From positions 1-64,000 of the forward strand of contig CALGDE010000115.1 of assembly GCA_937883785.1 (NCBI GenBank): 64,000 nt of DNA. Reading direction: 5' to 3'. Of this stretch, positions 49,522 through 64,000 are shown one piece after another. The position numbers were made by a program, and so were the translations under genes. Position 1 is the stretch's first letter. Each line of letters starts with the position of its first letter. This DNA comes from an uncultured cyanobacterium. Its GTDB lineage: Bacteria > Cyanobacteriota > Cyanobacteriia > CACIAM-69d. Under the pieces are notes generated by a model. It had not been told where the DNA came from. It saw only the letters and a list, made by a program, of their open reading frames with translations, and did no database searches.

Positions 49522-51222
49522 TTAGGCGAGGGACGCAACAATAGACTGGATTTGAGCGATCGCCCCTTGTTGAGCCTCTGACGGTCCCACAGCGCCCTCT
49601 AAATTCTCTAGGAGTGACCGAAGATGCTCTTGCAACCCATCCAGCTGATCCTGAGTGGGCTGAACAATATCGTCGGTTAAGGAAACCTTGCCCTGTAAAT
49701 CTCCAAGGTTCTTCTGCTGCTCCAAAAGTTGGTTTGAACGTGCCTGTAGCTCTCCCCAGCTTGCGGCTCGCTCTCCCTCACGCTCATTAAGCTGAATTTC
49801 CACCGACTCCACTTCTGACTTCAAAGTGGCGATCGCCCCATCCAAAGAGTCACGCTCTCCCTCCAGCTTTTCAATGGCTGCTGTCACCTCACCAACAACC
49901 GGCGTTAGGTCCACAGCACCGTCGCCTCCCTTTGGGGACAGCCCCTGGCGCTTACGCAATACCCCTTCATTCAGGTGGAATACCTCTTCACGCTCATTTA
50001 AATTGCGGCGAATTCCCAGCAAAGACTCGTTGAGTTTGTCATAGCTCTCTTTTTCATCGGCGAGCTCTGGCTCCATGGCAATGCGGTCATATTCGTTCGC
50101 CTGGTTCATCTTTTCCTGAACCTCTTGAATCGCCTCCTGCTGGTATCCCAACTCCTCTTCCTGATCTTTCACAAACTGGGACATCTTATCCAAGTCTCGC
50201 TTCAGCTCCCCCACCATCTTCTCCAGCTCACCCAGGTCCATCGCCTCCAGCGCAGCAATGTCCACTTTGTCTGACGTGGTCACTTCGCCCGCCGCCAAAC
50301 GGTCCAGCGTTTCCTTTAACTGCTGCTGCCCCTGAATCCGTAGTTCCAACTCTTCCTTCTTCGCGCCCATTTTCTCCAGGGACACCTGCTTTGCCCGCAG
50401 CTCACTTTGATCCCCAGCCAAGGCTAAACCATCATTGCGCCACGAATCGAGGGCATCATTAAGGGCTTGGACTTCCGCATCTATCCACCCCTGCAATTCC
50501 GACAAGCTTTGCCGCTCAGCTTCAATAGCCTCCCAACGTCCTGCCAAGATAGTTCCTTGGGCTTCAGCAATTTGTAAGCAAGTTTCCACCGCCGGACGCA
50601 AGGACGACGCATCACCGCCCGCTGCAATTTGCTGGGTGAGGTTTTGAAGAGTCTGGGCCTGTTGCGGATCCAGGCTAGGGGTGTCCTGAATTTGCGATCG
50701 CTCTTGCTCCAACCGCTGCTGCTCCCCCCGCAGCTGATCCCAAGCTTGCTTAAGCTCCTGATTTTTATGCTCAATCTCCTGATTAAGCCGTCCTGCTTCC
50801 TGGCGCTGCCGTTCTAAATTCTGGCTCTCCTGTTGAATCTGCTCCAGCTCCTCTCGCCGGGATTCCATTTCCATTTCTCGACGGTTAAGCTCCTGACTTT
50901 GAAAAGTCAGGGACTCCATCCACTGTTGAATCTCTTCTTCCTTACTTTTCGATTTTTCCTGCTGCCGAGAGTAGCTTTGCAGCAGCGTTACCAGTTGCCG
51001 TGCCCCTTCCTTAATGCGCTGGGCGCGGCGATCGCCGCCGCTGCCCACCACCTCCACCATGACCAAGGAGCCGTCTTTGTGGTTGCCAATATCATCAACA
51101 GCGATCGCTGGCTCATTACTAGCCGCATTCCACTGATCACCTTTCTGACAAGCCAGTAGCTTCAGCTCTGCCTTGCTGCCCATCAGTCCACGCTTTTGGA
51201 CGACCTCTGCTAAATACAGCAC
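49522..51222 (-). CDS. hmpF: Pilus motility taxis protein HmpF
   Basis: A 566-residue coiled-coil protein. The N-terminal 90 residues (LYLAEVVQKRGLMGSKAELKLLACQ, WNAASNEPAIAVDD) are the conserved HmpF head. Residues 95-280 and much of the rest are long heptad-type coiled coil, rich in Glu, Gln, Leu and Arg. In filamentous cyanobacteria HmpF is needed for gliding and hormogonium motility and shows polar dynamics with the type IV pilus system. It starts at GTG 51222. It is divergent from the taxis operon, 1.16 kb away, supporting a joint role in pilus-driven taxis. Confidence 0.9.
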   Translation of the reverse strand: MLYLAEVVQKRGLMGSKAELKLLACQKGDQWNAASNEPAIAVDDIGNHKDGSLVMVEVVGSGGDRRAQRIKEGARQLVTLLQSYSRQQEKSKSKEEEIQQWMESLTFQSQELNRREMEMESRREELEQIQQESQNLERQRQEAGRLNQEIEHKNQELKQAWDQLRGEQQRLEQERSQIQDTPSLDPQQAQTLQNLTQQIAAGGDASSLRPAVETCLQIAEAQGTILAGRWEAIEAERQSLSELQGWIDAEVQALNDALDSWRNDGLALAGDQSELRAKQVSLEKMGAKKEELELRIQGQQQLKETLDRLAAGEVTTSDKVDIAALEAMDLGELEKMVGELKRDLDKMSQFVKDQEEELGYQQEAIQEVQEKMNQANEYDRIAMEPELADEKESYDKLNESLLGIRRNLNEREEVFHLNEGVLRKRQGLSPKGGDGAVDLTPVVGEVTAAIEKLEGERDSLDGAIATLKSEVESVEIQLNEREGERAASWGELQARSNQLLEQQKNLGDLQGKVSLTDDIVQPTQDQLDGLQEHLRSLLENLEGAVGPSEAQQGAIAQIQSIVASLA

Positions 51223-52378: not shown

Positions 52379-53611
52379 ATGCAAGGTAACCTCAACGAAA
52401 TTGATATTCGCAGCATCCTCCAGCTTATTCAGTTGGGGCAGCGCACAGGGGAGCTTTTTGTTGAGACCTACCAGCCGACCGGGACGGTCTATGATCGCCA
52501 CTTGGTTGACGGGCGATCCCCTTGGGAACGGCGAAGCTGCTGGTTTGTATTTTTTCTTAACGGACGCATTGTGTATGCCACTAGTGCTGAACAGGGAACC
52601 CAGCGCCTTAAGGATTACTTGGGACGCTATGGGCTAGAAGAAGAGCTGGACAGCGCCAAAGGATCAGCCGACCTAACGGTGGGAGGCAACCCAGAATATA
52701 GCTGTTTGTGGATGCTTTTGGAGCAGCATCGCTTGGACCCAGCCCAGGGACGCACCATCTTAGACGGTATGATCCGCGAAACTCTCTTTGATCTGCTAAG
52801 TCTGCACTCGGGCACTTTTGCATTTGAAATTGGCCCCGCCCTTGCCCCTCAGCTCACCACCTTTGATACGGGACAGTTAGCAGCCCAATGTTTGAAGCAA
52901 GTGCAGCAGTGGAAACAGTTTTATCCTCATATCCAGTCGCCCGATCAATGTCCCTTATTGGTGGAGCGGGACGACGTGCAGGAGCGGCTGGCGGAACAAA
53001 CCTTTAAAACCCTAAGCGATTGGGCAACGGGGGCGATCGCAATCCGTAAAATCGCCCGCACTCGCAACCGCGACATTCCCACGGTGGCACGAGTCATAAT
53101 GCCCTACGTTCAACAGGGCATTATTCAATTAATCGACCCACCAACGGCCCGGGTGGAGCTGGATCGAAAAGCCGTTGCCCAGAGACAAAGTGGAGCACCG
53201 TTGGTCGCCTGTGTGGAAGACAGCCAAACCGTGCGCCAGGCGATCGAAAAAACCCTTCAGGTGTTGGGCTATCGAACCGCTGGCTATCCCGGCCCCATTT
53301 CAGCGCTAGGGGCGCTATTTGATGTGCGTCCTGACTTGATCCTCTGCGATATTTCCATGCCGGAGCTAGATGGTTACGAACTGTGCGCCATGTTGCGCCA
53401 GTCCAGCATTTTTCGCCGCACGCCTATCGTGATGCTGACCGGGTTAGACGGATTTTTGGATCGTATCCATGCCAGAACCGTCGGGGCCACCGACTATTTA
53501 ACTAAGCCTTTTAAAAAGCACGAGTTACGAGCACTGGTGGAACGCTACGCCGGTCCTGCTCATTTGGAAACTTTTTCCACCTCCATAGAGCTGGGGGCAG
53601 TTACCAATTAG
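52379..53611 (+). CDS. PATAN-domain response regulator (PilG/PatA-like)
   Basis: A 410-residue regulator. The N-terminal PATAN/DUF4388 domain (about 1-250) begins GNLNEIDIRSILQLIQLGQRTGELFVE, with WFVFFLNGRIVYATS. The C-terminal receiver (about 275-395) has CVEDSQTVRQAI, phospho-Asp324 in LILCDISMPELDGYE, VMLTGLDG and the conserved Lys in YLTKPFKKHEL. PATAN regulators control phototaxis direction by acting on pilus motor ATPases, and this gene heads the usual PilG-H-I-J-L order. It is divergent from hmpF; a 926-bp gap separates it from the next gene. Confidence 0.88.
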   Translation: MQGNLNEIDIRSILQLIQLGQRTGELFVETYQPTGTVYDRHLVDGRSPWERRSCWFVFFLNGRIVYATSAEQGTQRLKDYLGRYGLEEELDSAKGSADLTVGGNPEYSCLWMLLEQHRLDPAQGRTILDGMIRETLFDLLSLHSGTFAFEIGPALAPQLTTFDTGQLAAQCLKQVQQWKQFYPHIQSPDQCPLLVERDDVQERLAEQTFKTLSDWATGAIAIRKIARTRNRDIPTVARVIMPYVQQGIIQLIDPPTARVELDRKAVAQRQSGAPLVACVEDSQTVRQAIEKTLQVLGYRTAGYPGPISALGALFDVRPDLILCDISMPELDGYELCAMLRQSSIFRRTPIVMLTGLDGFLDRIHARTVGATDYLTKPFKKHELRALVERYAGPAHLETFSTSIELGAVTN

Positions 53612-54537: not shown

Positions 54538-54903
54538 ATGAGCACAGTCTTAGTTGTTGAAGATAGCATCGCCCAGCGGGAGATGATCACGGAGCTTCTC
54601 CAGGGAAGTGGGCTGACTGTCAGTATGGCCGGGGACGGCGTTGAGGCCTTAGAAAGCTTACAAAAGCAAAAACCAGATTTGGTTGTATTGGATATTGTGA
54701 TGCCTCGAATGAATGGTTACGAGGTGTGTCGCCGCTTAAAGTCTGATCCCAGTATGCAAAAGGTGCCGGTGGTGATGTGCTCTTCTAAGGGAGAGGAGTT
54801 TGATCGATACTGGGGAATGAAGCAGGGAGCAGACGCGTATATTGCAAAGCCATTCCAGCCAAAGGAACTGGTAGGAACGGTGAAGCAGTTGTTACGGGGA
54901 TAA
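54538..54903 (+). CDS. CheY-like response regulator (PilH-like)
   Basis: A 121-residue stand-alone receiver. The acidic pocket is Glu8-Asp9 (VVEDSIAQRE), the phospho-Asp is Asp52 in LVVLDIVMPRMNGYEVCRRL, followed by VVMCSSKGEEFDRYWGMKQG and Lys104 in YIAKPFQPKEL. The absence of an output domain suggests it acts by protein contact, either on the pilus machinery or as a phosphate sink. ATG start at 54538. Confidence 0.93.
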   Translation: MSTVLVVEDSIAQREMITELLQGSGLTVSMAGDGVEALESLQKQKPDLVVLDIVMPRMNGYEVCRRLKSDPSMQKVPVVMCSSKGEEFDRYWGMKQGADAYIAKPFQPKELVGTVKQLLRG

Positions 54904-55129
54904 TGGGTAACCTAGCGATAGCTGTATTTTGGGCAGGCGCTTCCCTCCCTATCTACAAGGTGGCGGACCGAAAGAGCTTATTGGAAAGGCAGGCAAATTG
55001 AAACAAATAGGTTAGAACGGGCCCATTAGAGTAGGGCGATTGAAATCAATACATTAGGGGCAACTGGTTAGAAATCAAGACTAAAACCAGGGGCAACCAT
55101 TGAAGACTAATTAGGTGGTTTTGGACGTT

Positions 55130-55669
55130 ATGGTTGGTAATCCAGATTTTTTAACCGGGCGGGGACCGGAACACGCGCCAGAGTTTCAGGAGCTGGAAAG
55201 CCCTGAAGGTGAAATGCACCTGCGCTTTTTTGTGGGGGCTCAGCAGGAATTTGCACTGCCGGCGATCGCCATTAAGGAAGTCACCGAACCGTCCCCAGAG
55301 CAGATTACGCCAGTGCCTAACGTGTCGCCCCTACTGCTGGGCACATTGAACGTGCGAGGGCAGGTGCTATGGGTGGTGGATTTTGGACAATTTCTAGGGG
55401 AGTCTGTGTCGGTCACCGCAGACCGCTCTGATATTCCAGTAATTGCCATTGAAGATCAAGAAACTATGCTGGGTCTAGCGGTGACGAAAATCTCCAAGAT
55501 GGATTGGCGAGATTCGGAAGATTTGGAGCCACCCTCCGGCGCTCCCGATTCGGTGCGTCCTTTTCTAAAAGGAGAGTGGGCAGCTGACCCCCCTGGCACA
55601 GCGCCTTTACGCTTGTTAGATTATGGGGCAATCCTCCATTCCAGTCGTTGGGGTGGCTCTGACTCATAG
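55130..55669 (+). CDS. CheW-like coupling protein (PilI-like)
   Basis: About 180 residues from the ATG at 55130 (GTG five codons earlier is possible). The CheW domain shows FFVGAQQEFALPAIAIKEVT, ITPVPNVSPLLLGTLNVRGQ, VLWVVDFGQFLG and VIAIEDQETMLGLAVTKI. It couples the chemoreceptor to the CheA kinase. It is placed between the CheY-like and MCP genes, with 226 and 108 bp gaps. Confidence 0.92.
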   Translation: MVGNPDFLTGRGPEHAPEFQELESPEGEMHLRFFVGAQQEFALPAIAIKEVTEPSPEQITPVPNVSPLLLGTLNVRGQVLWVVDFGQFLGESVSVTADRSDIPVIAIEDQETMLGLAVTKISKMDWRDSEDLEPPSGAPDSVRPFLKGEWAADPPGTAPLRLLDYGAILHSSRWGGSDS

Positions 55670-55777: not shown

Positions 55778-58700
55778 ATGGCACCTAGCATGGACTACAA
55801 CCAGGAATATCAACGGGCTAATACAGCCTACGTCCAAGGGGACTATGAATCTGCCGCAGAGATTATTGATCGGCTGGTAACGGTTGAGCCTGATGATGCT
55901 AACGCCCGTTTGTTACGGGGACATATTTACTGCTACGGACTGCAGCGATATGAAGTAGCCCAAGATGACTATCAGGCGGTTCTGAATTTGACCAGTGATC
56001 CAACATTTTTGGAATACGCTCAAACGGGATTACAGGATGTGGCTCAGGGTATGGGGACTGCCGAGGGCAACGGTAGCGGCGATGCCAACGCTGATGGGCA
56101 GTTTGCAGATTTAGATTTTGACTTTGAGGACAGTGCATCCGGATTGGGAGCGGGACTGTCAACCTCTGAGTCCACCCAGGAAAACAGTGAAGATTTTGGT
56201 ATCGCCAGCTTAGATGATTTGGAGCTTGGGGATGATGTGGACACAGGGCTGAGCCTGGGACGTATAGGGGCAGCGGAAGAGGAGCTTGGGGGCGGCAGTG
56301 CAGATTTGTCTGAGTTTCAGGAGGGAGATCTGGGGAGCGCTCTAGGCGTTGATTCAGGCAGCGATTTAGGGATTGACGGCGACAGTTCCGATGATCCTTT
56401 TGCGGCGATGGTCTCCGGTGATGTTCCCGAGGAAACGGGGGACGGTGCCGGTGGCGATCCCTTTTCAGCGATGGCTGGCGGTGAAGAGGACAGCGTTGTG
56501 TCTTCGGCAGATGCAGGGTTTGCTGATGATCCTTTCGGCGTTTCTGGCGATAATCCGGGAGATGGCGGCGTTGACGATGGCAGCGGCGACTTATTGGACG
56601 CCATCGAAGGAGAAGATCCTTTTGGAAATGTTGATTCGGCAACTCCGGAGCCTTTGGGCAGTGATTTGGACGGCGAATTAGGGGGCGATTTTGACGGTGA
56701 CCTGGGGGGTGACCTAGGTAGCGATTTTGAGAGTAATTTTGGGGGTGAACTGGACGGTGGGTTAGGCGGCGACCTTGACGTGGATTCTGAAGACTTAGAC
56801 TTAGGCAGTTTGGATTTAGGATCGGACGACTTAGGGGTGAGTGATGGGACGCCAGGGGATGAGCCTGGTGGCGGTTTTGGGGAATTTGGAGAGGAGGCGT
56901 TAGCGGCAGATTTGGCAGCCGATATTCCTGAAGAAGCACTGCCCGTGGACAATAAGGAAGTTGGTGACGGAGAGGGGGATCTCGGTGGCGAACTTGGGTT
57001 CGATTCATCTTGGGACCTGGACGAAATCGATGGTCCTGGCAGCATGCAAGAGGAAGGAGGGCTGGGTAGTGATGCCTTTGCCCACCCGGACGAGGTGGAA
57101 CAAGAATTTTTGCAGGACGTGTCCTTTGCCAACAATGCGCCCTTTGGAGACCTGGACGACTCGGTGACCCTTGGCACGCCAGTTTTAGATGATGTGTCGG
57201 GGGTTATTGCTTCGGAGACGTCAGCGCCCCAGGAAGGGAGTGCTTTCGAAGAGAACTTTGGGGAAGACTTTGGTGGAGATCTTGGCGGAGAAGAGGATGC
57301 TGGCTTGGGTTTAGGGTCTGGCTTTGCCACGGAAACTGGAGATCTTGAGACAAGGGACAACGAAGGATTTGGTTCTTTAGATTTGGGGGACGAGGACCTG
57401 GGCAATGGGGACCTAGGCTTTGGGAACTTGGGGGACGACGCTTTGGGAGAAATTGGTGAGGGTCTGGACGACGGAAGCCTTAGTGCAGGGCAAAGTTCAG
57501 AGTTGATAAACGATCAACCTGGCTTTGGGAGCTTTGATGCCGATGGTTTTGATTTAGAAGGGGGGGCGGCGATCGCCACGGCGGAAGGATCTCCCGGTGA
57601 CGCGAGTGCGGCAATGGGCTCAATAGATGATGGGATGGGCAGTGGTGGTTTAGGGAGTAGTGGTGTTGCGGAAGGAGACGCCGAGGATAGCGGGTTTGGC
57701 GACGGTGGATTTGGCGACGGTGGATTTGGTGAAGAGCTGGAGGAGAACCCTTTTGGGGGAGGTGGCGGAGACAATCCCTTCGGAGATGGCGGTGGGTTTG
57801 GCGATTTTCCCGAGTCTTTTGATTTAGACAGCGAGGATAATTCGCTAGGAGATGCTTCAGCGGCGAATGCTGCTCCCAACCAAGAGCTGTCTGACGGCAG
57901 CATGTTTGGAGAAGAGGTCAGCGAGCCCAGTGTGTCATCAGGTATGTCCGTTGGTGGAGATGATCCCGCTGACGATATTTCTATTTCTAGCTTTCTCCCC
58001 GGCGGTCGCAATGCGGAAGAGTCGGACGATGGTGATCGCACAGAATTTATGACTGAGCTGATGGTGGATGAGGTGGGAGAGCTGACGCCTCCAACGGTGT
58101 CGCCCCCCCGTTCATCGTCGCCAATGCCACCTATTCCTGATGGTGAAGCGGAGGAGCGCGAGGAAACCCTGTTTATGATGCCCCAAGGGGCTGATGGGTC
58201 CGAGTTTGGAGATTTTGGCTCCATCGGCGGGCTGGACCAAGATGATGCCTTTGAGTTGGGCGATGGGAGCGATGCAGAGGCTTTTGCACCGTTGCCCGAT
58301 GAAAGTGGGCTTAGCCAGGAAGACGCTCCTCAGGAAGAGTTGAGCTCATTTATTGAGGATGGGGCGATGGGGGCGATCACGGACCCTAACGACACCTCTG
58401 GCAATGACGAAGACGCCTTTTCTATGGATGAGTTGGCGAATGATATGTCGTCTATTTCAGCAATTTCTGATTCTTCGTCGGCAGGTGGCAGCGACTTTAT
58501 GGATGACCTGGATGAGTTTGATGATCTGGGAAGTCTGCCGGATTTCAGCTTGACCAATGCCAACGCCGAGTTTGCGGGGGACGACGACGGGTTTTCTCTG
58601 GGGGATGGCGCTGGGTCTATCAGCAACTTGGCGGGCACCGGGGACAATGAGATTTTTAATATTGCCGGTGGCAGTGCGCCGGAGGAACTACTGAGTTTTG

Positions 58701-60181
58701 ACCAGCCGGAGAGCCGAGCGGCAGAGCCGGTGGTGACCACTGAGGGCAGCCTGCTGGCGCCCTTCGACAATGCCCGTTTAAACACTAAGCAAGTGGTGAC
58801 GGCGATGGCGGCGGGGTTAGTGGCCACCATTAGCGTGTCCGGCATGGCCTATTTAGGGATGAGTTTTGCCAAGGATCAGGGAGCCAACGGAGATACCATT
58901 GGCGAGATCCGCAATATTGGCTTGTTTTCGGCGATCGTGGCGGGGCTGAGCAGCGGTGGTGTGGCTTGGTTCCTGGGGCGGCGGGCGTCGCGGCAGTTTG
59001 ACCAGTCGGCGGTGGACTTGCAGGTGCAGTTTGACTCGGTGTGCCAGGGAAATTTAAGCGCCACGGCGAAAGTGTTTGGGGATGATGAATTTGGGGATTT
59101 GGCTAACGGTTTCAACCAAATGATGCGGGTAATTTCCAGCACCATGGGTGAAGCCCAGCGGAAAGCCCAGGAACAAGAGCAAGCGCGGGAAGACCTACAG
59201 CGCCAAGTAATTCGACTGCTAGACGATGTGGAAGGGGCAGCTCGTGGTGACTTGACGGTGCAGGCGGAGGTAACAGCGGACGTGTTGGGAGCCGTTGCTG
59301 ACTCCTTTAACTTGACTATTCAAAACCTGCGGGAAATTGTGCAACAGGTGAAATCAGCGGCGCGAAAAGTGAACGAAGGATCCTCGGAAAATGAGGCGTT
59401 TGCCCGAGCGCTATCTTCCGATGCGTTGCGACAGGCGGAGGAGCTGGCGGTAACGTTAAACTCCGTGCAGGTAATGACCGATTCCATTCAGCGGGTGGCA
59501 GAAAGTGCGGCTGAGGCGGAGGAAGTGGCGCGGTCTGCGTCGTCCACCGCGTTGAAAGGGGGTGAGGCGGTAGAACGCACCGTGGCTGGTATTTTGCAGA
59601 TTCGAGAAACGGTGGCGGAGACGACGCGAAAGGTAAAGCGTTTAGCGGAGTCGTCCCAGGAGATTTCAAAGATTGTGGCGTTGATTTCTACCATTGCTTC
59701 GCGAACCAACTTGTTGGCACTAAACGCCAGTATTGAGGCGGCTCGAGCTGGCGAGGCGGGCAAAGGCTTCGCTATTGTGGCGGACGAGGTGAGACAGCTG
59801 GCGGACCGATCTGCAAAATCATTGAAAGAGATTGAAAAGATTGTGATGCAGATTCAAGGGGAGACCAGCTCGGTAATGACGGCGATGGAAGAAGGTACCC
59901 AACAGGTCATTGAGGGTACGAAGCTGGCGGAACAGGCGAAGCGATCGCTGGACGACATTATTCAGGTATCGAATCGTATTGATGTGCTGGTGCGATCCAT
60001 TACGGCGGACACGGTGGAGCAGACGGAAACGTCCAAATCCGTGGCGCAGGTGGTGCGGTCCGTTGAAAAAACGGCGCAAGATACGTCCCACGAAGCGCAG
60101 CGAGTATCGGGATCCCTACAAAGTTTGGTGGGCGTTGCACGAGACTTGCTGACGTCGGTGGAGCGTTTCCGAGTGGAGTAA
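55778..60181 (+). CDS. Giant methyl-accepting chemotaxis protein (PilJ/HmpD-like)
   Basis: 1467 residues, roughly twice the usual size. Residues 1-90 form a TPR-like segment ([40 protein letters not shown]). About 95-1000 is an acidic, Gly/Asp/Glu/Leu/Ser-rich low-complexity region with six D/N-P-F motifs at residues 206, 227, 251, 280, 657 and 666. TM1 is near 1007-1029 and TM2 near 1046-1068, with only some 17 residues between, so there is no periplasmic sensor. HAMP-like segments follow, then the signalling domain with the conserved tip [21 protein letters not shown] and [16 protein letters not shown]. Sensing therefore probably occurs through cytoplasmic partners. The start is the ATG at 55778. 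Confidence 0.93.
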
Positions 60182-60541: not shown

Positions 60542-63500
60542 ATGCAAGATCAACAGCAGCGCATCATGGGGTATTTCATTGAGGAGGCGCGGGACCACCT
60601 CAATACCCTGGAACAGGGGCTTTTGAATTTGCAGGCGACCGTTAATGACCCGGAAATGATTAACGAGGTGTTCCGGGCGGCCCACTCAGTGAAAGGTGGA
60701 GCAGCAATGCTGGGGCTGGGAAGCATTCAGCAGACGGCACACCGTTTGGAAGATCATTTCAAAGTGTTAAAGGAGCACCCCATTCCCATTGACCGGGACT
60801 TGGAGTCATTATTTTTAAAAGTTTTTGACACCTTGGTGGAGCTGCTAGACCATTTGCAGGGATCCTTCGGGCTTACGGATGAAATTGGCGATCGCATTTT
60901 AAAAGAGGCAGAGCCGGCCTTTAACGCCCTTAGCATGCGACTGAGCCAGGAAATGCAGGCCCAGGGGCTGTCGGAGGAAGAGACGCCCACGGTGCTCAGT
61001 CCCTTTGTCACTGGAGATACGCCGGAATCACGCCTGGCCAAGGTTTTTCAGCAGGAAGTGTCTCAGTATTTGCGGCAGATTTTAGATCGGTTTAAGCAGG
61101 AAGATAATGCCGCCGGTCGTTCTGCATTAGGGGAGCTTTGCCAACAACTTCAGGATTTGGCCCAAGGCTATGAGATGCCGGAGTGGAACCAGCTGTTGAG
61201 TGCAGCAAAACAGGCGGTGTTAAATCCGGATAACTCCTATCGTCAGCTGGCTCCGGTGCTGATTCGTGATATCAAAACGGCGCAGGATTTGGTTATTGCA
61301 GGGCAGGGAGATGCGATCGCCGTGGGGCTGGAGCTGCGGGAGTTGGCCCAGGGAGACGAAGGCGACACAACGGAGATTTTGCCCTTTGGTACGGCAGCGG
61401 TGGATTTAGACGCTGCGGGCAGCCCCGGGAGCAGCTCCTTTGAGGACTTATTTGACGGCGACGAAACTGAAGACGCTTTGGATACATCTGGCGAGGCAGC
61501 TATTGAGAATGCCGCGGCTGAGAACAGTGAGCTGGACTTTGACTGGCTTTCTGGCAGTGCCACGGGAGCTGCGACCGGAATTGACGGCATAGAGCTCAAT
61601 ACGGGCAATCCTCCCAGTGCGCCGGCGGAGTCAGGGAGTGGACGCGTCACCAATGGTCCTGAGGTGGGAGATGTGGAGCTCAACACCCTGGCCGATTTGT
61701 TTGAAGGGGAGGTGTCGGAGCTAGAGGATGTGTGGACGGCAGATGATATTGAAAGCTTTAACGAGCTCAATACCGAAGCTGAGACAGGAAGTAGCAGCAA
61801 ATTTAGTGATTTTTCCGACTTGTTCTTCGATACCGATGCGGAGGGTTCCACCGCATCAACCCCCAGTTTGGAGGATGACGCTGGCTTCCTAAACGATGAC
61901 TTCCTAGATGAATTGGTGATTCAGCAAGGGGTTAGTGAGCTGTCGGATATGGGCGACGTTATGCTCCAAAGCTTCGACGGTGGCGAGGCAACGCCTCCGG
62001 TGAAGCCTTCTGCAGCAGAGTCCGGTAGCGATGCCAGCGTTGATGACTTGCTGGCCATTGGCGATGTGGATGATAACGGTGAAGCAAACGAAGGCGATTT
62101 AGGCGCTTTATTTGATTCCGTTGAGTTGTCTCCGGAGGATGGGGAGACAGCGGAAGATGTCAGTGACGAAGGGACCATAAGCGGTGGCGACGACTTAAAT
62201 TTGGACTTGGACGGGCTGAGTGTAGACAGCGCGGAAGCAGAGCCGGCGGAGGTTGCCGATGGAGCAGCGGCTTTGCAGGGGAATCCTCTGGACGATATGG
62301 CGGATTTATTCGGCGGCGAGTCCTCAGGGGATGAGCTCGCAGAGCTTGTGGGTAGTGATGGCAATGATGATTTGGGAGGCGACCTGTTTGGAGAGGGCGC
62401 TGACGATGGGGGGCTTGACGCAGAATTAGAAGGACTGAGCGGTATTGCAGAGGATGACGGTCTAGCGGAGGATCCGTTGGGGCTCGGTGAGTTGGGGCTT
62501 AATGATGCAGGGGCAGATGTGCCCGGGGAGGCAGGAGGCGACTCCGCCGGGGCTGATGAGCCCATCGGTGAGGAGGAACTCACGTCCCTGGGACTAGAAG
62601 AGGAACTCGATGATTTGCTGGTAGGTGAGGACGCGGACCTGGGCGACGACACTTCTATGGCGGATTTGGAGGGGTGGCTTGATACTTCGGGTATTCAAGA
62701 CAGCAGTGAAGGGCTGGAAGGCATTCCCAGCTTGGACGGTTTAGACGGCGAAGCGTGGGGTATTGGTGATGATGGCGGGGAGCTATTGAGTGAAGATCCC
62801 CTAGAGGCATTGACCGCAGAGGGGGCTTTAGATGCGGCGGCAGGAGAGACCGCGCCGGAGGGCGGTGAAGCGTCAGAGGGGTTGGCGGCACTGGGAATGG
62901 AGGATTTGGACGAGCTAGACCAGTGGCTTACGGAAGATGACGGCGGTGGCGGGGAGGCGATCGCCGACGACTTGGGAGAGATGGAGGATCTAGATGCCCT
63001 ATTGGCTGAGGACGTGAGTCTGGAGGATTTGGAGGCGGCGGAGCCCGAGTCAGCGACCCCGTCAGAGGAGCTGGCAGAAATTGCGGTGCCGGAGCTGGAC
63101 GATCCCAATGTGGCGCAGGATATTAACGGCGCCAGCTTACGACAACGGGAGGTGTCCCCGGCGGCCGATGATGCGCTGGCAGATTTATTTGGGGATGATT
63201 TTCCCGATGGGGATGAGGATCCTTGGCAGGGGGACTCTAGTGCCGACACAGCGGGACAGGGTAACGCCTCCGTAGATGTGGTGCTATTGGGAGGTGAGGA
63301 CAGCGATGATTTGGACGGTGATCTTGAAGGGCTCCTAGGGGAAGCCGGAGAAATCGCCGAAGGGGTCGCCAGTGATGCAACAGCCGGTGGCTCCGAGCTA
63401 GAAGGTCTGGAGGGGCTGGAAGGGCTCGGAGGAGAGATAGTTAGCGGCGTAGATGATTGGTCGGAGTTTATCGGCGAGGAAACCGGCGAAATCGGCGGAG

Positions 63501-64000
63501 ACGAATCCGGTGGCTTAAGTTTGGACGGGCTAGATCTAGAGGGATTGGAAGGGCTGGACGGCGCTGGCGATATGGAAATAGCCGGCGGGCTTGATGAATT
63601 GCTAGAAAATCTAGGCGGGGCGGAGCAAACTACCAGTGTTCCTTCGGGAGACTTAGACGAGCTCGATGCCCTGGCGTCTGGGTTGGGACTGGGAGAGGGG
63701 GCAACGGACACCGGCAGCTTTTCCGATTTGGAGCAGTTTTTAGATGGGGGTGACGGGGCGTCGGACGGGGCGTCTGGTCAGGGTTTATTCTCTGAGCTGG
63801 ACGGGTTGCTAGGGGGCTCTGATCCAACGGGGTCCTCCGGTGGCGGTGGCGCAGCATCCTTTGATGACCTAGAGGAACTCCTGCAAGGGGAACCGTCGAC
63901 GGTGCAAAGCGATGGTGTGACGTCATCGCCTAAGGGGTTGCCTCCTGAAGCTGCCACGAAAGCGGACGGGGTGATCGCCCCGGCGGCGTCAGGCTCGGTG
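60542..64000 (+). CDS. CheA-type histidine kinase (PilL/HmpE-like), partial
   Basis: Open to the window end (1153 codons seen, 3' part missing). Residues 1-110 are a histidine phosphotransfer domain: YFIEEARDHLNTLEQGLL, FRAAHSVKGGAAMLGLGSIQ with phospho-His48. A second helical region covers about 165-290 (FQQEVSQYLRQILDRFKQED). From about 295 to the window end the protein is acidic low-complexity sequence with recurring D-L-F motifs at residues 302, 385, 426, 588, 614 and 881. The dimerisation, ATPase and CheW-like domains expected of CheA are not yet reached and should lie downstream. The ATG at 60542 follows the MCP by 360 bp. Confidence 0.9.
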   Translation, partial: MQDQQQRIMGYFIEEARDHLNTLEQGLLNLQATVNDPEMINEVFRAAHSVKGGAAMLGLGSIQQTAHRLEDHFKVLKEHPIPIDRDLESLFLKVFDTLVELLDHLQGSFGLTDEIGDRILKEAEPAFNALSMRLSQEMQAQGLSEEETPTVLSPFVTGDTPESRLAKVFQQEVSQYLRQILDRFKQEDNAAGRSALGELCQQLQDLAQGYEMPEWNQLLSAAKQAVLNPDNSYRQLAPVLIRDIKTAQDLVIAGQGDAIAVGLELRELAQGDEGDTTEILPFGTAAVDLDAAGSPGSSSFEDLFDGDETEDALDTSGEAAIENAAAENSELDFDWLSGSATGAATGIDGIELNTGNPPSAPAESGSGRVTNGPEVGDVELNTLADLFEGEVSELEDVWTADDIESFNELNTEAETGSSSKFSDFSDLFFDTDAEGSTASTPSLEDDAGFLNDDFLDELVIQQGVSELSDMGDVMLQSFDGGEATPPVKPSAAESGSDASVDDLLAIGDVDDNGEANEGDLGALFDSVELSPEDGETAEDVSDEGTISGGDDLNLDLDGLSVDSAEAEPAEVADGAAALQGNPLDDMADLFGGESSGDELAELVGSDGNDDLGGDLFGEGADDGGLDAELEGLSGIAEDDGLAEDPLGLGELGLNDAGADVPGEAGGDSAGADEPIGEEELTSLGLEEELDDLLVGEDADLGDDTSMADLEGWLDTSGIQDSSEGLEGIPSLDGLDGEAWGIGDDGGELLSEDPLEALTAEGALDAAAGETAPEGGEASEGLAALGMEDLDELDQWLTEDDGGGGEAIADDLGEMEDLDALLAEDVSLEDLEAAEPESATPSEELAEIAVPELDDPNVAQDINGASLRQREVSPAADDALADLFGDDFPDGDEDPWQGDSSADTAGQGNASVDVVLLGGEDSDDLDGDLEGLLGEAGEIAEGVASDATAGGSELEGLEGLEGLGGEIVSGVDDWSEFIGEETGEIGGDESGGLSLDGLDLEGLEGLDGAGDMEIAGGLDELLENLGGAEQTTSVPSGDLDELDALASGLGLGEGATDTGSFSDLEQFLDGGDGASDGASGQGLFSELDGLLGGSDPTGSSGGGGAASFDDLEELLQGEPSTVQSDGVTSSPKGLPPEAATKADGVIAPAASGSV

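Follow-up and report, generated by a model that had tools for sequence, protein, structure and literature searches.

The P2 domain is the module that brings a response regulator to a CheA kinase. The CheA described here, encoded by an uncultured cyanobacterium, has a long acidic linker in the region where a P2 domain would be expected, and the tripeptide DLF recurs along it. The partner receptor carries an acidic linker of its own. This locus raises the question of whether the DLF motifs are more than a product of composition, and of what the two linkers might bind. The window (the whole stretch of DNA that was analysed) is 64,000 nucleotides in length and ends inside the CheA gene. About fifty operons were read in detail, and motifs were counted at family level with one orthologue per family.

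The CheA gene and its operon

One neighbourhood of the window holds HmpF, a PATAN regulator, a CheY, a CheW, the receptor, and the CheA, which is the gene content of an Hmp/PilL-type operon:

49522..51222, minus strand: HmpF coiled-coil taxis protein (NF038350, 485.7 bits; cut-off 200)
52379..53611, plus strand: PATAN (DUF4388) plus receiver response regulator (HmpA/PilG), the proposed partner of the CheA linker (Pfam PF14332, 109.3 bits; PF00072, 82 bits)
54538..54903, plus strand: CheY-like single receiver (HmpB/PilH; Pfam PF00072, 107.4 bits)
55115..55669, plus strand: CheW (HmpC/PilI; Pfam PF01584, 79.7 bits)
55778..60181, plus strand: partner receptor (MCP of HmpD/PilJ type), 1467 aa, with TPR (11-69), acidic linker (101-1011), two hydrophobic segments, HAMP, and MCP signalling domain
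60542 to 66010 in window-equivalent coordinates (L007:10543-16011), plus strand: CheA gene (HmpE/PilL type), its 3' end 2,010 bases outside the window
60563..60853, plus strand: Hpt (P1) phosphotransfer domain of CheA, residues 8-104 (Pfam PF01627, 64.8 bits; AF2 pLDDT > 90; Foldseek matches to CheA P1 structures)
61022..61351, plus strand: second folded helical bundle of CheA, residues 161-270 (AF2 pLDDT ~92; no histidine; no Pfam match)
61367..64000, plus strand: acidic disordered linker of CheA, residues 276 to ~1160, the last ~7 residues outside the window

The HmpF gene adjoins the operon in many genomes. Every protein of the operon is acidic, including HmpF (net -44) and CheW (net -17), which rules out a basic partner encoded in the operon and bound to the linker by charge.

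The CheA gene encodes 1822 aa in a single intact frame, whose 5' part (60542..64000, plus strand) lies in the window. Because this frame runs through to four core domains, an assembly or frame artefact is ruled out. The Pfam domains follow in the order Hpt (8-104), H-kinase_dim (1163-1219), HATPase_c (1381-1519), CheW (1535-1662), and C-terminal receiver (1696-1808), as is characteristic of the Tfp class; the protein is thus a hybrid CheA of the Hmp/PilL (type IV pilus) system. By orthology to the Nostoc and Synechocystis genes, it would be expected to control type IV pilus motility. Pfam gives no match to a P2 or CheY-binding domain in this CheA at E <= 0.01, a threshold at which a weak, divergent P2 is conceivable, and the region where P2 is expected is predicted to be disordered in the AF2 model (up to residue 443).

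In this model of residues 1-443, helical domains fold at 2-140 and 161-270, and disorder follows, with pLDDT < 50 from residue 273 on. The helical bundle at 161-270 is probably a degenerate Hpt-like domain. It is also kept in free PilL-N proteins; as it contains no histidine and yet is retained there, this degenerate Hpt, if it is one, may take part in docking. The linker that follows consists of 27% D+E and 1% K+R, and the acidic character ascribed to it by the initial annotation is borne out. That annotation also had the acidic region continuing at the end of the window; this holds for its last few residues, but the region ends only ~20 bases later, at about residue 1160, after which the dimerisation, ATPase, CheW, and receiver domains are intact.

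Recurrent motifs and conserved islands of the CheA linker

DLF occurs at CheA residues 302, 385, 426, 588, 614, and 881, exactly where the initial annotation placed it. Four of the six sites are ADLF or EDLF, as was claimed for all of them; residue 426 begins SDLF and residue 614 GDLF. The DLF sites, together with a conserved island (island A) and copies of a longer motif (motif B), are distributed as follows:

61445..61453, plus strand: DLF site 302 (FEDLFDGD)
61655..61711, plus strand: island A, GPEVGDVELNTLADLFEGE, residues 372-390, including the DLF at 385 (13/18 other families, z 7.2)
61817..61825, plus strand: DLF site 426 (FSDLFFDT)
62303..62311, plus strand: DLF site 588 (MADLFGGE)
62381..62389, plus strand: DLF site 614 (GGDLFGEG)
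63182..63190, plus strand: DLF site 881 (LADLFGDD)
63719..63742, plus strand: motif B-type copy FSDLEQFL, residues 1060-1067
63785..63811, plus strand: motif B-like copy LFSELDGLL, residues 1082-1090
63860..63883, plus strand: motif B, FDDLEELL, residues 1107-1114, 54 aa before the kinase core

No tripeptide of the linker is more enriched than DLF (6 against 0.42 expected). The initial annotation had proposed comparisons with shuffled sequence and with orthologues, and both uphold the motif. None of 20,000 composition shuffles reaches six copies, and the z of 7.7 exceeds the 95% null maximum of 6.7 over all tripeptides. Under a first-order Markov null, six copies are reached in 49 of 5,000 sequences (p ~0.01). 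Across orthologous CheA linkers, DLF is found 73 times against 15 expected, in 17/19 families, and the extended form [FLMIV]xDLF[DEG] 28 times against 1.5. The shuffles, the Markov null, and the orthologues rule out a chance origin, and the DLF motif is, on the strength of these sequence comparisons, real and selected. DNA tandem duplication is ruled out as its source: the linker contains only one two-copy 12-mer, and the codons differ among the six sites.

Some match to this CheA was found in 54/59 relatives, and in about 50 of these the orthologue scores high and stands well apart (bits above 540, paralogues falling below 330). In a wider sample, 282/390 genomes of the class match at E <= 1e-50. 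The orthologous linkers range from ~20 to 1736 aa with their acidity largely kept, and DLF persists in orthologues whose linkers otherwise defy alignment. Between two genomes of the window's own genus, the linker is 78% identical and the core 95%; at the places inspected, neither DLF 881 nor FSDLEQFL differs, and FDDLEELL has become FDDLEDLL.

Two islands, absent from the initial annotation and stronger as features than DLF itself, stand out from this background. Island A, with the consensus GPEVGxxELNxLADLFEGE, is missing from many families; in the AF2 model a short helix (377-385) covers its LADLF, and the rest of the arm is disordered. Motif B, FxDLExLL, occurs 53 times over the orthologues against 0.06 expected. 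A profile with the consensus [ED]F[DAGS]DLE[KAR]LL[EQ]D finds it in 61/73 orthologues, 27-72 aa ahead of the kinase core. In an AF2 model of the C-terminal half of one orthologue's CheA, the motif B helices are short and have pLDDT < 50; because the whole model is of low confidence (pTM 0.28), it lends docking no support. Motif B was absent from four large (> 2000 aa) proteobacterial CheAs that were checked, and these examples do not bear it out as a general feature of Tfp CheAs. DEFDDLEKLLEDAD and GPEVGMAELNSLADLFEGE are candidate docking peptides.

Seven complete linkers lack DLF altogether, all of them in three families (f12, f17, and f26). The Hmp-type PATAN regulator is absent in f12 and f17 and most diverged in f26 (30-32% identity), and HmpF is present in all three. 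That loss of DLF tracks the absence or divergence of the PATAN regulator is suggestive only, as the association is post hoc, involves three lineages, and is confounded by short or F-poor linkers. One genome (G049) has three DLF and no PATAN orthologue that could be found.

Several linkers and loci were unusual. The CheA linker of L083 (f17) consists of about nine near-identical repeats of ~42 aa (FDFEESLGDIPTLDFSEGTEGSLGEFDFESFTP...), unlike the other linkers read. A paralogous, non-Hmp CheA in a Chlorogloea purpurea MAG (L101:6838-10384) has a linker with six or seven (L/V)(E/D)(E/D)(V/I)FG repeats, which resemble LDDLFG yet are distinct. At L182:8165-17149, receptor and CheA alike have broken open frames (101 aa + 893 aa and 276 aa + 1758 aa, respectively), possibly through sequencing error.

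The receptor linker and split kinases

The initial annotation held that both signalling partners are expanded in a similar style. Their linkers are indeed alike in composition, but their motifs differ and their lengths are uncorrelated (Spearman 0.13, p 0.57, 20 families). A long receptor linker (760-911 aa) is confined to the window's own family, with 240-660 aa elsewhere. A matched co-expansion of CheA and receptor is ruled out by these lengths. The reading of D-L-F as a motif common to both partners fails as well: receptor linkers contain DLF twice against 5.7 expected, in 1/23 families. They are instead rich in [DN]PF (58 against 8.7 expected, 22/23 families), which CheA linkers contain 10 times against 7.2. 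The [DN]PF tripeptides are read in eukaryotes by EH and AP2 domains; we know of no bacterial domain of these types. Islands of the receptor linker across families are EETLFM and FLDEFDEFDDLGxLPDF, and the features in the window are:

56393..57781, plus strand: [DN]PF motifs of the receptor, residues 206, 227, 251, 280, 657, and 666
58163..58177, plus strand: receptor motif ETLFM, residues 796-800
58496..58546, plus strand: conserved island of the receptor, residues 907-923 (15/22 other families)

One sub-motif, FDDL, is enriched in both linkers (23 against 2.4 in CheA, 12 against 0.8 in the receptor), so CheA and receptor may have a common binder of FDDL. At receptor residues ~1005-1067 (58790-58980), two hydrophobic segments are separated by a short loop only. 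No periplasmic sensor domain is therefore apparent; the receptor seems to lack one, in which case both the TPR and the acidic linker would lie in the cytoplasm. Nearly every orthologous receptor has an N-terminal TPR. Pfam finds no LysM in the receptor, as a FimV/HubP-type protein would have, and an MCP domain instead.

In some families the kinase is divided between two genes. Families f31 and f37 encode the kinase half as a protein of its own, 1064-1167 aa long and with 254-348 aa of the acidic arm. Motif B is intact in the four f31 genomes and has the variant form FGELEALL in f37. The free Hpt half (three genomes) stops soon after the second helical domain, without the acidic arm. In f8 and f27, and likewise in a Richelia MAG, the split falls within the linker, and here too motif B remains with the kinase half. 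Since split CheAs keep the arm and motif B on the kinase half, the arm is part of the kinase core and no obligatory tether. The same division is seen in Synechocystis, in its pair PilL-N/PilL-C (slr0073/slr0322, 1095 aa; PMC7076178, PMC4632739).

A proposed docking arm, its possible partners, and known systems

Because the recurrence of DLF is real, conserved across the class, and distinct from the motifs of the receptor, the CheA arm is probably a string of docking sites. According to the explanation we favor, which we hold tentatively at a little under an even chance, the disordered acidic arm would stand in the position of P2 as a docking arm, its acidic residues keeping short amphipathic helices exposed. 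The motifs would be of several types: dispersed [LMF]xDLF[DEG], island A near the Hpt module, and FxDLExLL in one to four copies just ahead of the dimerisation domain. On binding they may fold as helices and recruit to the kinase core a response regulator, most likely of PATAN type (HmpA/PilG), and perhaps the Hpt module as well; the sites, numerous and of low affinity, would give a high local concentration. The motif set of the receptor linker ([DN]PF, EETLFM, and DEFDDLG) presumably serves another partner.

In two-hybrid assays of the Synechocystis proteins, PilL-C (Hik43) binds the Hpt half, Hik36, as well as Rre6 (PilG, of PATAN type), and no protein binds the CheY-like Rre7 (PilH) (PMC7656254). 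Rre6 and Hik36 are both still bound by a Hik43 truncation from which the catalytic, CheW-interaction, and receiver domains are missing; the N-terminal region is required, and the authors did not settle what the Hik43-Rre6 contact is for (PMC7656254). These results fit a docking arm for the PATAN regulator, but the truncation holds both the arm and the dimerisation domain, so the arm is only a candidate binding site.

The main rival arises from the likeness of motif B to the EIDALL motif of FliM, and makes FxDLExLL its analogue, binding the a4/a5 face of HmpB/PilH or of CheA's own receiver. At sequence level, the consensus [ED]FxDLExLLED (EFDDLEKLLED here) has the core [DE][IL][DE]xLL in common with E. 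coli SQAEIDALLNG, and EIDALL binds the a4/a5 groove of CheY (PMC9126983). The arm also sits at the P2 position, and f12, the sole lineage without both the Hmp CheY and the Hmp PATAN regulator, is without motif B. However, PilL-C showed no binding to PilH/Rre7 in the two-hybrid study (PMC7656254), f15 lacks an operon CheY yet keeps FADIEAIL, and no docking of motif B in cis was seen in the low-confidence C-half model. Amphipathic [DE]L[DE]xLL helices are common, which makes the FliM likeness a mere lead, and we regard this rival as unlikely. It is distinctly improbable that the arm is a composition-driven spacer or condensate former, serving distance, solubility, or phase behaviour, with its motifs as hydrophobic stickers that have no specific receptor. 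The great variation in length with acidity largely kept, and the cutting of the arm by gene splitting, would suit such a spacer, but the FxDLExLL octamer is position-specific and far above expectation, island A recurs across most other families, and the CheA and receptor arms are alike in composition and unlike in motifs.

Two further proposals concern the partner, and both are very improbable. In a shared-adaptor scaffold, as the initial annotation suggested, the CheA and receptor linkers would bind one adaptor (HmpF or CheW) and build a polar signalling array. The two linkers share an acidic, disordered character and an enrichment in FDDL, and HmpF lies beside the operon in many genomes; nevertheless, the motif sets differ, the linker lengths do not co-vary, and both adaptors are themselves acidic. 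HmpF and CheW also persist in lineages without DLF motifs, so neither is an obvious partner of the DLF arm. Alternatively, the CheA arm would bind the N-terminal TPR of the receptor, a kinase-receptor contact parallel to the one mediated by CheW. The TPR is nearly universal among these receptors, and in the polar organisers FimV and HubP such domains are the proposed sites of client binding (PMC12918733), but f12 keeps the TPR without having the arm motifs, and the most diverged TPR is that of f5, where DLF is kept.

The docking-arm explanation can be extended to two partner-specific motif codes conserved throughout the class, [LMF]xDLF and FxDLExLL in CheA and [DN]PF, EETLFM, and DEFDDLG in the receptor, which would select the regulator (PATAN or CheY type) that meets the kinase, the disordered arm having replaced P2. 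This wider proposal is doubtful. If true, it would describe a bacterial two-component kinase in which arrays of short linear motifs replace a folded docking domain. The kinase motifs are short (eight residues), conserved, and open to mutation, and with the separate receptor set they lend themselves to direct tests by point mutation and peptide binding.

No description of these disordered arms or of their motifs was found in the openly accessible full-text literature. A survey of CheA architecture reports that Tfp CheAs such as ChpA have no P2 and that dimerisation domains are longest in those of Cyanobacteria and Chloroflexota; disorder goes unmentioned in its text, where "linker" is used once (PMC10782961).

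The operon has the same components as the Hmp/Tax3-PilG system (Nostoc HmpA-F; Synechocystis PilG-PilH-PilI-PilJ-PilL), with HmpF confirmed by NF038350. Like the CheA described here, Pseudomonas ChpA has no P2, an N-terminal Hpt, and a C-terminal receiver; in ChpA, however, many Hpt domains fill the space before the core. The CheY-binding N-terminal EIDALL of FliM/FliY is likewise a short acidic amphipathic helix with a [DE][IL][DE]xLL core, whereas motif B lies inside a kinase, is repeated, and starts with Phe, and CheY as its partner is putative. FimV and HubP combine a long acidic cytoplasmic disordered region with a TPR, as the receptor does, a likeness in architecture, homology aside; unlike the receptor, they carry LysM in the periplasm and lack signalling domains.
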